From positions 4,180,695-4,244,694 of the forward strand of contig OU696596.1 in NCBI GenBank assembly GCA_916048095.2: a DNA stretch of 64,000 nt, read 5' to 3'. Each line of letters begins with the position of its first letter. The first letter of the stretch is position 1. Positions 22,357 to 64,000 of this stretch are shown piece by piece. The notes beneath the pieces are model-generated. The model saw only the letters and a program-made list of their open reading frames with translations, ran no database searches and was not told where the DNA came from. The DNA is from Sacculina carcini. Its lineage: Eukaryota > Arthropoda > Thecostraca > Sacculinidae. The translations under genes and the position numbers were made by a program.

Positions 22357-23183
22357 CACTCAGTCAGTAGTTGAGTACAGGCATTCAACGTGAATGTACG
22401 AATAATTTCATTGTGTTTCGAGTCTACAGCAAAACGGACAGCAATTCGAGAACACACGCAAAATATAATGATATTTTCAAGCTCTCTTACATGTTGAAAA
22501 GTATTTATGATTAGAATGAACGCCCAGTTAACAATTATATATATATTGTGTATACTATTTATAACATCGATGTATAATATATGTGAGTTGGCTTATATCG
22601 TATTTAATTAATGTACACATAGTACAGCCAGGCTTTAAATCGGTTTTGTATCCTAGTAAATTCTGTTGAGTGTGAAAAGTTCAGAAACTGAAAAAGACCG
22701 CAATTTTACAAACAGTCCAATACATGCTTGCATGTTTCGTTTCACACGAATTTATTTGCAAAACATATTCTTTTTTCGAAAGCGTCAAAGTTTCAAATTT
22801 GATATGTGTGGAATATTTTTTTGACAATAGCCCAGAGCACTCTCTGCCAAAAATGGACTGACCAAAAAATTAAGTAGACGTGTAGCTTTGTCTGGCCACA
22901 AACCAGATCCAAAGCTACATACCCCCAATTCGGCCTTGATATCCTAAACCAACTACCCATTATGGACAGATTACATAAGAGGGTAAAGAAGAAGCAAAAT
23001 GATGAAATAATTTGGGACCAGAAGATGCACATAGCAATAAGTTATAATGCTTTTCTTGTCTAGTACCTCACACACAAACTCAACCCGACACAAACTCAAC
23101 CCCAAGCTAGTGATCATTTTTGACGTATAAGAGGAGGTACGCATTCTTCGTCCTCACGCTTGACTCGCTGATGAGGGACACAA
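22357..23183. other. Unit 1 left block
   Basis: No recognisable gene. The site ggccttgatatcc at about 22,930 is the uninterrupted target of the solo LTR found in units 2 and 3. A minus-strand frame here (PDKATRLLNFLV, FLAESALGYCQKN) is shared with the other units but I cannot assign it. Confidence 0.5.
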
Positions 23184-23338
23184 TGAGGCCGAATCCGTGG
23201 GATGAGGCTGAATCCGCGGGATAAGGCCGAATCCGCGGGATCGGGATGATGCCGAATCCGCGTGAGCAGGCTAAATCCGCGGGATGAGGCCGAATCCGCG
23301 GGATGAGGCCGAATCCGCGGGATGAGGCCGGCGGGGGG
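23184..23338. repeat. GC-rich 19-bp minisatellite (CCGCGG type), unit 1
   Basis: Seven to eight imperfect copies of gatgaggccgaatccgcgg. On the minus strand all frames stay open and give repeated IPRIRPHPADSASSRGFG-like peptides, an effect of the repeat rather than a sign of a gene. Confidence 0.9.
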
Positions 23339-23506
23339 AGATGACTGTCTCTTTTTAATTTCTTTTGGTTTTTCCTTCTTCGAAGATTTCTTTTGAAGAT
23401 TGTTGTGAAGACTGCGAGCTGCCGCCGACAAAACGAAAATCGGCAGCGTTTGGCGGAAAACGGGAACGACGTAAAATCCTTCGACAAACAAACAAAAAAA
23501 GTCCTT

Positions 23507-23945
23507 AAACAGACACAAATGACCTCAATTACCTTGAAAATGACCTCGGAGATCAACAAAACTAAGCCTATGACCTTCTTGCATCCATTTTACCCCTAGG
23601 GACCAAGTTTCATCAAAATCGGTCCAGTGGTTTAGAAAGAGATTGGGTAAACAGACACAAATGACCTCAATGACCTTGAAAATGACCTCGGAGGTCATCA
23701 AAACTTAGCCTATGATCTTCTTGCATCCATTTTACCGCTAGGGACTAAGTTTCATCAAAATCGGTCCAGTGGCTTAGGAGGAGATATGGTAAACAGACAC
23801 AAATGATCTCAATGATCTTGAAAATGACCTCGGAGGTCATCAAAACCTAGCCTATGACCTTCTTGCATCCATTTGACCGCTAGGGATAAAGTTTCATCAA
23901 AATCGGTCCAATGGTTTAGGAGGAGATAGGATACAAACAGACATT
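23507..23945. repeat. 142-bp satellite, three copies (unit 1 only)
   Basis: Units start at about 23507, 23649 and 23791 with aaacagacacaaatga and end with agtttcatcaaaatcggtcc and a ggtttaggaggagat-like string. I recall the last phrase from dispersed repeats in other invertebrate genomes. Units 2 and 3 have lost this region. Confidence 0.85.
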
Positions 23946-24039
23946 TAGAAAATTTGCAATCAGTGCAGGGCAAAATAACCATCAGTTTGGACCTTCGGGC
24001 CGAATTGGAAAATGCTGCAGTCGTTTCTGTTTGTCGTTT

Positions 24040-24670
24040 CTCGCAAACAGCGCGTGTTGCTCAACGGTAGAACGTCACAGGGGTCCGATGTAACCAGCCG
24101 AGTGCCGGAGGGATCCATACTGAGTCCGTACTGAGTCCGCTCCTGTTTGACATACTCGCCAATGACCTAGCAGTGAGCTTGGGAGACTCGGCGCTACTCT
24201 ACGCTGACGATATCATCAATTCTTCATTGTGTCGAGATGGCTACAGATGGCCAGATTCTACAGTGTCTAATTGGCCGTTTTTGTACCTGCTGCGGTGAAT
24301 GCGAGTTGAGACTTGACTCAATCAAATGTTGAAAGCTCAGCGTTACACTCAGAAAGCAGTTGTGCTCGTGCGAGTATAAAATTGGCGGTGAAATAGTACA
24401 GACGATTTGCGTGGTTCGTGTCCTGGGTGTCATGATTAATCTAATCTCACCGTCCTGGGTGTCATGATAAATCTAATCTCACCGTCCTGGGTGTCATGAT
24501 GAATATAATCTCACCGTCCTGGGTGTCATGATGAATCTAATCTCACCGTCCTGGGTGTCATGATGAATCTAATCTCACCGTCCTGGGTGTCATGATGAAT
24601 CTAATCTCACCGTCCTGGGTGTCATGATGAACGATAAACTCACCTTCGACCCACATGCTGAAACCATTAC
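24040..24670 (+). pseudogene. Non-LTR RT fragment with 32-bp minisatellite, unit 1
   Basis: The fullest copy: RKQRVLLNGRTSQGSDVTSR, VPEGSILS, a duplicated tactgagtccg, SPLLFDILANDLAVSLGD, LLYADDI, then LRKQLCSCEYKIGGE and VLGVMIN, where the minisatellite array has grown, then MNDKLTFDPHAETI. Motif order fits a CR1/jockey-type RT; frameshifts make it a pseudogene. Units 2 and 3 keep only the part from LRKQLCS on. Confidence 0.78.
24420..24631. repeat. 32-bp minisatellite, 7 copies, unit 1
   Basis: Copies start at 24421 and then every 32 bp. The second copy has the same ataaatc variant as the second copy at 10,568, so the array order predates the tandem amplification. Confidence 0.93.
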
Positions 24671-61304: not shown

Positions 61305-61310
61305 TGTTTG

Positions 61311-61354
61311 GTAGTGTTATTGGTTACACCGAAGCCGAAAACCAATAACACTAC
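61311..61354. other. 15-bp perfect hairpin, unit 3
   Basis: Same as 34,271-34,314. Confidence 0.68.
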
Positions 61355-62039
61355 AGCATATTTTGGGGAAAGCTGAAGATCCCAAGCCCCACGGCACGGC
61401 AGGGGCGCCGCCACTGCCGTGTAGCAGCTGTCACTTGAGTCTTTTTATCTTTTTAACCTTTAAATCGTAAGCCTTCAACCCTTTTATTAATACAACCCTT
61501 ATATATATTTTCTATCAAAGAAAATTTCATAAAAATGAACTAATGGAAGCTGTTAGCTCTTCAAGACTTTGCCAAGTGCAAGAATGAATAACTCAATGTT
61601 AATGCGCCTCGAAACAAATGTAAATGTGTTATTAGACTCATGCGTAAGGGAGGTAGCAATGGGGAAGGGTGTATGCAGCAAGCGAGAGATGGGGAGGAGG
61701 TGGTCTTGCAAGACGAACACAAGGCATACACGTGAGCGAGCGAATCGCACAATTGAAAAAAAACAAAATCGGCAAGATCACAAGCAACAACACACACATG
61801 CAAAAGCACACACAAACATACACATACATGCACACACGTGACGACGTAAACGTGCGCACAAGTGGAAACACCCATGCGTATGGAAAAATTCACAAGGAAA
61901 CTCACAAAGCACACACGTGGGCGTATACCCTGGGGGATATAGGGGTGAATATACTCCCCGACAATATGACTTGTGGTATGAAAATGCAATTATACTCTCC
62001 AATAATTATGCTGTGTTTAGTTCAATAAGTATATTATCA
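61355..62039. other. Unassigned CA-rich stretch, unit 3
   Basis: As 34,315-34,999, including the aaaatcggc form of unit 1. Confidence 0.45.
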
Positions 62040-63077
62040 TCGAAATCACCATAACAAACAACAACAATGTACGAGCGTGAGTGTATGCAAGTGTGTTACA
62101 TGCAGTTCGCTCTTTATTGAGCTATGTATGCTGTAATTTAATTAGAGGAAAATGGTTGGTTGATAACATGCAATTGGCCAACTGAGTCAATTTTGAAAAA
62201 TAAAGCATGATGGCTGTCAACCACCGAGTCTCGACAAAAATCTTCGCCTTTGCACACACACATGCGCATCTATACACACACACAAACATATGAAAACGTC
62301 CTCGTATCTATTGCATGACTCACAATTTCTCTCGATTAAGCTCAAGACTCACAATGAACCCTCGAAGCAGTAGTGCGTCAAAGCATATCAGATATCAGTC
62401 ATGTGTTGTGTCATGCATTCTGGGGAGGTGGCCCTCTCTAATACGTCTTACGTCCTTGTGGCGCCATATCGTGGAGAGGGTCGGTTCTGCGGTGGCAGCG
62501 AGCTGCACGGGGTACGCTTTTGTGTTCATAAGCTTCGGCTTCTTCCCGTGTAGCAGCTGCCACTTAGGCATTTAACCTTAAATACTTAAGTAATCCGAGC
62601 TTTCAGATTGTGACGGATTCAATGGTGCCAGGGTAGTTACGCGAGGATGCTGGTGTCAAGACGACGCCATGGCATTGCAGGCATCACAGCACTCGTGTGT
62701 GCAGTTTATGTCAACGCTGATGTCACGGATGTCACGCCTTAATAGGCGTCATGCAAATTATACAGACATTCCTTGCGTAACACTGCACGGATGAAGTGGC
62801 GCTGTTTATAAAGAATGATAGACTTAACTGTAGACAGGTGGTGCCTGAGTGTATAATATTTGCGTAGCTCTCTGGGCAGTCTTGTGTGTGTGTGTGTGTG
62901 TGTGTGTGTGTGTGTGTGTGTGTGTGTGTGTGTGTGTGTGTGTGTGTGTGTGTGTGTGTGTGTGTGTGTGTGTGTGTGTGTGTGTGTGTGTGTGTGTGTG
63001 TGTGTGTGTGTTGTAGACTTGCCATTTTGGAAGTAATTCAGAAGTCGACAATTAACGGGATCACACATAGTTGCTTC
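62040..63077. repeat. Block Q+R with deletion, unit 3
   Basis: As 35,000-36,040. Confidence 0.65.
62882..63011. repeat. TG microsatellite, 130 bp uninterrupted, unit 3
   Basis: Pure (TG)n; the gtgagtg interruption of units 1 and 2 is gone. Confidence 0.95.
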
Positions 63078-63480
63078 ACACTTCAATTGTCGGTGTATGC
63101 AGAATTATTCGAATTCCGCATCTGTTCGGGGGAGTGTGTAAGAACTATAATTATCGCTAAATTAGGCAATCACACAACTGGCAACTTTAGGATGATGAAG
63201 TGAAATTTGGGAGTGGTGATTGGTTTTTTTGGGGAGCAACGTGTGTGGCAATCAACTGGGCAGTCAATTGAGTCAGATCGAGTAATATTCACGGGGAATT
63301 CAACTCTGGAGATTCAGGAGTCGTCCCTCAAATTCAATCGTCAAGTTTCATCATCGTCAATCAAATCGTTCGAGCACTCAAATGTTCAAATAAGGTTGAT
63401 CGAGGAAACTCCGTAGAACAACTATTTCTACAAAGACACAGGCTACAGAGAAAATATTTCAGGTTAGTCCACAGTTCTCA
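63078..63480 (+). other. Unit-closing block with 69-codon ORF, unit 3
   Basis: As unit 1; frame at 63,207-63,416 preserved. Confidence 0.35.
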
Positions 63481-64000
63481 CACTCAGTCAGTAGTTGAGT
63501 ACAGACATTCAACGTGAATGTACGAATAATTTCATTGTGTTTCGAGTTTACAGCAAAAACGGACAGCAATTCGAGAACACACGCAAAATATAATAATATT
63601 TTCAAGCTCTCTTACATGTTTAAAAGTATTCATGATTAGAATGAACGCCCAGTTAACAATTATATATATATATATATATTGTGTATACTATTTATAACAT
63701 CGATGTATAATATATGTGAGTTGGCTTATATCGTATTTAATTAATGTACACATAGGACAGCCAGGCTTTAAATCGGTTTTGTATCCTAGCAAATTCTGTT
63801 GAGTGTGAAAAGTTCAGAAACTGAAAAAGACCGCAATTTTACAAACAGTCCAATACATGCTTGCATGTTTCGTTTCACACGAATTTATTTGCAAAACATA
63901 TTCATTCCTTTTTCGAAAGCGTCAAAGTTTCAAATTTGACATGTGTGGAATATTTTTTTGACAATAGCACAGAGCACTCTCTGCCAAAAATGGTCTAACC
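63481..64000 (+). repeat. Start of tandem unit 4 (partial)
   Basis: Continues like the left block of units 2 and 3, sharing agtattcatg with unit 3 against agtatttatg in unit 2. The window ends before the solo LTR site, so the array continues to the right. Confidence 0.85.

Follow-up and report, generated by a model that had tools for sequence, protein, structure and literature searches.

Composite satellite monomers have been proposed to arise in heterochromatic transposon graveyards, a hypothesis set out in a 2025 review which, in its passages on element-derived repeats, lists unequal crossing-over and non-allelic homologous recombination (NAHR) involving element copies among the ways in which such repeats can originate (PMC12628747). 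The route from dead mobile elements to satellite-like arrays is mostly deduced from repeats that are already old and homogenised. Here, we describe a stretch of 64,000 nucleotides from the crustacean Sacculina carcini (contig OU696596.1, hereafter C37, positions 4180695-4244694; 'the window'), which carries part of a tandem array of four copies of a 13.5-kb block of transposon remnants. At this locus, a one-copy counterpart can be read beside a four-copy array that appears to have passed through a dimer, with both exchange points at minisatellites, and the transposon-graveyard route thereby becomes directly testable at one locus. The locus is of a known kind, and is an unusually well documented case of it.

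The C37 array behaves like the first steps of the graveyard route, and its organisation would fit them. As in the composite monomers described in the relevant part of the review, a tandem unit contains pieces of several elements with nested insertions, and recombination between element copies is the likely driver. Whereas those monomers contain short stretches of similarity each, the C37 unit measures 13.5 kb and is present in 4 copies, and the one-copy locus and exchange points that are visible at C37 go beyond the hypothesis as worded there (PMC12628747). Element-derived tandem repeats with gene conversion between copies are also represented by CRM1TR and CRM4TR of maize, and we count as a further likeness to the C37 loci that CRM1TR occupies two loci approximately 1.4 Mb apart. 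According to the sections of that report dealing with their origin, these maize repeats each derive from one retrotransposon subfamily, with initiation proposed by illegitimate recombination, whereas the C37 unit spans several elements and its initiation would have occurred between long direct repeats (PMC3648361). The Sobo satellite of a wild potato, as cited in the same report, resembles the C37 array in having a large mixed monomer (retrotransposon long terminal repeat (LTR), satellite and genomic DNA), but this unit is smaller (4.7 kb) and the array, over ~360 kb, is far longer (PMC3648361). The subtelomeric blocks of rye, in the parts of the study that describe them, share with C37 tandem repeats that were amplified together with neighbouring elements and signs of ectopic exchange; the rye repeats are the satellites pSc200 and pSc250, whereas the C37 unit is the element block itself (PMC4857426). 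Lastly, the macro-dyad arrays of Tribolium madens likewise show mirror-oriented repeat domains and contain a long palindrome in their repeat, but their satellites have short monomers and form direct and inverted subarrays that each measure tens of kilobases, whereas the mirror domains of C37 are ~1 Mb apart (PMC13081366).

Compared with a segmental tandem duplication by NAHR, the C37 array appears to be the same, except that a second exchange in the same repeat would have doubled a dimer. In duplications of this type, direct repeats flank the unit and the junctions are repeat chimaeras.

The assembly comprises 264.4 Mb in 43 contigs, of which C37 accounts for 6,400,879 bases. The window was extended by 100 kb on the left and 80 kb on the right, and one unit was mapped over the resulting 244 kb; negative window coordinates denote positions left of the window start on C37. 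All copy counts are based on one assembly of one individual, and in each DNA search of the genome itself the 40 best candidates were scored, so that the counts are lower bounds.

The presence of a tandem array of the composite block in the assembly was confirmed, with its phase corrected relative to an initial annotation of the window. The near-identical head-to-tail copies described in that annotation were recovered by self-BLAST of the window where it had placed them (12,447 bp at 99.81%, 11,355 bp at 99.43% and 10,221 bp at 99.57%). Chance or low-complexity similarity can be rejected, as the alignments between copies extend over 10-27 kb with 99.3-99.9% identity. Mapping and alignment of the four units delimited unit 1 at 24333-37886 (13,554 bp), unit 2 at 37887-51469 (13,583 bp) and unit 3 from 51470 to 64928 (13,459 bp), all on the + strand, followed to the right of the window by unit 4 at C37:4245623-4259203 (13,580 bp). 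The array on C37 thus comprises four full head-to-tail units and then ~1.7 kb of a fifth. Within the window, units 1 and 2 are complete and unit 3 (51470-64000) lacks its final 928 bp. The annotation had counted three units and the start of a fourth, which is too many for the window, where two units are full and the third is nearly so, and too few for the whole array; the further units that it proposed to look for on the right are indeed there, as the fourth full unit and the part of a fifth. Its unit size of 13.5-14.1 kb stands at the lower value, the upper one having resulted from counting in the left flank. Indeed, the array starts at 24333 and not at 22357, because the interval 22357-24332 (+ strand) is an older, diverged homologue of the units' right end. 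This flank is ~95-96% identical to its unit counterparts over 22357-23466 (593 bp at 96.5% and 536 bp at 95.1%), retains 868 bp at about 23466-24332, and is collinear with C37:3498286-3504199 of a sister locus described below. It should also be noted that 'satellite-like', as the array had been called, is an overstatement for four copies, since a composite satellite forms a long array of many homogenised monomers and only four full units are present here.

The relationships between the units are not those of a simple series. Units 1 and 3 differ at 18 of 13,455 compared bases (99.87% identity) and units 2 and 4 at 9 of 13,580 (99.93%), whereas the cross pairs share 99.57-99.69% of compared bases, with 56 differences in 13,532 bases for units 1 and 2, 42 in 13,439 for units 2 and 3, 58 in 13,530 for units 1 and 4, and 42 in 13,437 for units 3 and 4. 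Among 61 gap-free variable columns, 35 separate units 1 and 3 from units 2 and 4 and only one separates units 1 and 2 from units 3 and 4, the others being private to unit 1 (15), unit 4 (5), unit 2 (3) or unit 3 (2). Seventeen of the 35 splitting columns fall within the first 1.7 kb, which correspond to the core of a repeat termed X, because the chimaeric state of this core (X2/X1; see below) causes them; the remaining 18 are located elsewhere. A self-match of 27,160 bp at 99.87% has an offset of 27,040. Because the closest pairs are units 1/3 and 2/4, the array is probably best read as a dimer of dimers, in which one dimer was duplicated as a 27.04-kb block. Growth by one unit at a time is not favoured by this pairing.

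Among the alleles that only unit 1 carries, 13 form a cluster in 26957-29819. Twelve of these 13 were present in at least one other copy (40 longest alignments within the two fetched regions, counted without a chance control), and the first five were all found in the copy at C37:3518077. This patch would fit ectopic gene conversion from a diverged copy.

A paralogous locus at C37:3485945-3518975 (sequence examined: C37:3485001-3535000), 0.70 Mb from the array, carries exactly one unit. Its left flank matches window positions 6988-15600 at 99.6%, 16558-19994 at 99.2% and 20834-26746 at 99.8%. On the right, a single alignment of 17,226 bp at 99.2% pairs its unit and right side with unit 4 and the next 3.6 kb, reaching as far as window coordinate 82127. 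The unit at this sister locus extends from 3501786 to about 3515384 and shows 37-50 differences per ~13,500 sites relative to the four array units. It sits between two direct repeats, X1 (1,727 bp) and X2 (1,707 bp), which are 13,597 bp apart. The one-copy locus therefore has the flanking direct repeats of an NAHR-type tandem duplication.

In the array, the left copy of this direct repeat is the X1 core of unit 1 (24333-26059, + strand), the presumed recombination substrate, which is 99.88% identical to X1 of the single-unit locus and 98.83% identical (substitutions only) to X2. It contains a 32-bp minisatellite of 6.6 repeats (24420-24631, + strand; copies at 37974-38185 and, contracted, at 51556-51671) and a fold-back palindrome (25012-25574; copies at 38567-39128 and 52052-52614). 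Diagnostic events were defined as those at which X1 is the same at both loci, X2 is the same at both loci and X1 differs from X2 (n = 22). Judged by these events, the internal junctions of the array are X2/X1 chimaeras, as in NAHR-type duplications, the junction between units 1 and 2 being mosaic at its switch. This junction (37887-39613, + strand) is X2-type on the left and X1-type on the right, with the switch in 39027-39604, at a 20-bp minisatellite (39104-39172; 25550-25618 in unit-1 coordinates). It is identical to junction 3/4 (no differences in 1,727 bases). Both are X2-type at 20 of the 22 events, including the first 19 (24437-25473 in unit-1 coordinates), after which a 20-bp indel is of the X1 type, the base at 25577 of the X2 type and the base at 26050 again of the X1 type. 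Junction 2/3 (51470-53099, + strand) is a different chimaera: it has the X2 state at 24437, two events cannot be scored, and all 19 later events have X1 states. Its switch lies within the 32-bp minisatellite at 51556-51671, which consists of X2 repeats 1-3 and then the last repeat, while the full repeat number is present in the other 6 X cores compared. The 96 bp (3 repeats) that unit 3 has lost would be missing because the exchange took place three 32-bp repeats out of register. The different switch points at the two types of junction therefore point to two separate exchanges on the same substrate. At the joined unit border, the 868 bp that the left flank keeps are absent, with ~2 bp of shared sequence at the joint (by eye). 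A search with this border gave 67 matches (best 40 of 620 candidates). Five places match across the deleted form, three of them being the internal junctions and the others X2 and its counterpart at the sister locus; elsewhere among these matches, where both border halves are listed, they stand 0.6-0.9 kb apart.

Altogether, it is very probable that unequal homologous exchange between X copies, first over 13.6 kb and then over 27.0 kb, built the array together with ectopic gene conversion. The composite block would first have been assembled through successive insertions and deletions, within a domain rich in related blocks, and would have come to be flanked by X1 and X2, two direct copies of a single element fragment at a distance of 13.6 kb. 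X2 of one chromatid would then have undergone unequal homologous exchange with X1 of another, giving a tandem dimer whose units meet at a chimaeric X2/X1 junction. Subsequently, the X2 and X1 at the outer ends of this dimer may have recombined in the 32-bp minisatellite, three repeats out of register, and this second exchange would have doubled the 27.0-kb dimer to four units. Gene conversion would later have changed the patch of unit 1, and the single unit of the sister locus would represent the older state. We infer crossing-over between sisters or between homologues in these exchanges, as opposed to copying repair or re-insertion of a circle. A homology-dependent route of the latter type, in which break-induced copying took place, or a circle was excised by recombination of X1 with X2 and re-integrated into X, is possible but considerably less probable. 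It would result in the same X2/X1 junctions, and the switches are located at minisatellites, one of them beside the palindrome, where slippage during copying is conceivable; the sequence itself does not call for such a route.

Several observations weigh against the history of two X-mediated exchanges. The switch at junction 1/2 is mosaic rather than a clean single step, position 25577 being X2-type beyond the X1-type indel. The left-flank match of the sister locus is broken by two gaps of ~1 kb, and on the right the collinearity of the two loci ends 3.6 kb into the right side, ~1.9 kb beyond the X2 core. Moreover, the single-unit locus could be a contracted array instead of the older state, both being compatible with the sequence. 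A second tandem pair was found at window coordinates -58563 to -6142 (C37:4122131-4174552), with 25.6-kb blocks at an offset of 26,825 that are 99.75% identical, are separated by 1.2 kb and contain inverted segments of 4 kb. Its divergence is similar to that of the dimers (15 single-nucleotide polymorphisms (SNPs) in 25.6 kb versus 27 SNPs in 27.2 kb). An X-mediated origin of this pair was not supported, as its three borders lack a match to the X core, and one mechanism therefore does not cover both structures. The like size and youth of the pair could hint at a technical cause.

Such a cause would be an assembly artefact, in which a single dimer or unit was entered in duplicate, as might happen if two haplotypes were placed one after the other. 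This view is in line with the very low divergence of the dimers, with the near-identical 26.8-kb pair next door and with the fact that the four-copy array is known from the sequence of one assembly. However, it is improbable given the chimaera at junction 2/3, the 96-bp contraction of which is seen in none of the 6 other X cores compared, and the 56 differences in 13,532 compared sites between units 1 and 2; in addition, X1 and X2 share just 1.7 kb at ~98.8%, which would make a poor overlap for a false join.

The composite nature of the unit is evident from its content. From the 80 open stretches of mixed composition and at least 55 amino acids in unit 1, 13 were scanned against Pfam, and 3 of these 13 gave matches over the cut-off (RVT_1, Transposase_1 and HTH_48 of Mos1). 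The first represents a reverse-transcriptase remnant at 27028-27531 (+ strand; RVT_1, E 1.8e-19; copies at 40619-41122 and 54068-54571), which we take to be of the long interspersed nuclear element (LINE) type. The other two belong to a mariner/Mos1-like transposase remnant in two frames at 25603-26083 (- strand; Transposase_1 at 25603-26067 and HTH_48 at 25838-26083), with copies at 39157-39621 and 52643-53107 in the list of open reading frames. For the other 10 scanned stretches no Pfam family was over the cut-off, two of them having weak matches below it, and within the window no Rfam family reached the gathering score and no tRNA was detected by ARAGORN. Judged from their sequences, no working gene is apparent among the scanned stretches. 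A 322-bp nested element at 37035-37356 (unit 2 copy at 50616-50937) is situated towards the right end of the units, with 12-bp terminal inverted repeats (11 of 12 positions matching, by eye) and a 5-bp target duplication, CTTGA. A 19-bp minisatellite array occupies 33406-33814 (+ strand; copies at 47002-47410 and 60446-60854). The other modules are repeated pieces that recur nearby in other orders. As in composite satellites, the monomer thus holds pieces of several unrelated elements (RVT_1, mariner, further modules and the nested 322-bp element). The remnants of at least six transposons reported in the initial annotation could be confirmed in part, Pfam identifying the LINE-type reverse transcriptase and the mariner transposase and the rest being seen as recurring pieces. 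Its claim that insertion came first and amplification of the whole block later is supported by the same internal order in the one-copy locus at C37:3.50 Mb, and by the absence of the nested 322-bp element from the left-flank homologue, at 22934/22935. Likewise, a 601-bp query over internal element borders had matches of 500 bases or more at 14 places (best 40 of 142 candidates), 13 on C37 and one, at 93%, on contig C30; the composite would therefore predate the amplification and have been copied locally more than once.

Related blocks are frequent on C37. With module 35400-35850 as a query, 36 of the best 40 matches (of 1,270 candidates) fell on C37 and 4 on C30; on C37, all 30 scored matches at 3.39-4.26 Mb are on the + strand and all 6 at 5.29-5.49 Mb on the - strand, a mirror arrangement with domains ~1 Mb apart. 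For the LINE-type query (best 40 of 402 candidates, two 26-base matches being excluded from the count), the left domain contained 26 copies on the + and 4 on the - strand and the right domain 4 on the - strand, with one further C37 copy at 2.77 Mb and five on other contigs. Because both sets of matches concentrate on C37, the array apparently grew out recently within a region of ~0.9 Mb that holds related blocks; a smaller domain in mirror orientation lies ~1 Mb beyond it. That the domain was amplified for a function, for example as pericentromeric DNA or a small-RNA source, might be suggested by this concentration and the strand bias of the module, but is very unlikely in view of the 4 minus copies among the 30 LINE-type copies of the left domain and of three 800-base samples between the domains that contain no long satellite. 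The array rather seems to have arisen passively, as repeats recombined with one another, and we propose no function for it. The same three samples, in which two short 12-21-bp runs occur in one and none in the other two, do not support a centromere between the two C37 domains; two of the three resemble coding DNA (by eye). A stretch at C37:4750001-4750800, with a G+C content of 61% as compared with 40-48% in 20-kb blocks around the window, resembles the gag/protease region of an LTR retrotransposon (by eye).

Sequences of X are widespread among the contigs. Its left part (23950-24420) was found at 99-100% identity on 13 contigs (40 best candidates), and the first 414 bases of the X core on 8 contigs (best 40 of 620 candidates). 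X, with its two minisatellites and palindrome, might conceivably act as a recombination seed, pairs of which in direct orientation tend to start macrosatellites on several chromosomes, so that one young element family would be founding large-unit tandem arrays in this species; we regard this as doubtful, the X positions having been compared without a control for other abundant elements.

Further repeats were seen on other contigs. An 11.11-kb tandem array at C36:2646001-2662000 also holds X, with three copies by position, two of which were sampled in part and are 99.97% identical over 3.2 kb; the rest of the sampled C36 unit has no match of at least 300 bases to the C37 unit. By position only, C30 carries four X copies 111-129 kb apart and C23 two pairs 8.4-8.7 kb apart. 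A U3 RNA gene, which marks the genome as eukaryotic, gave 39 matches, including those at C6:11.238-11.366 Mb and C10:3.39-4.46 Mb, whereas mitochondrial COX1 had no match in the assembly. The C6 matches, 4.7-11.6 kb apart, form a run on the + strand and then a run on the - strand, and mirrored arrays may therefore be common in this genome. Finally, the first 10 kb or more of C37 itself (C37:1-10000) consist of an 11/22-bp repeat (TACCTAAGTGT) that is similar to a variant telomere repeat (TTAGGTAACAC when read from the opposite strand).

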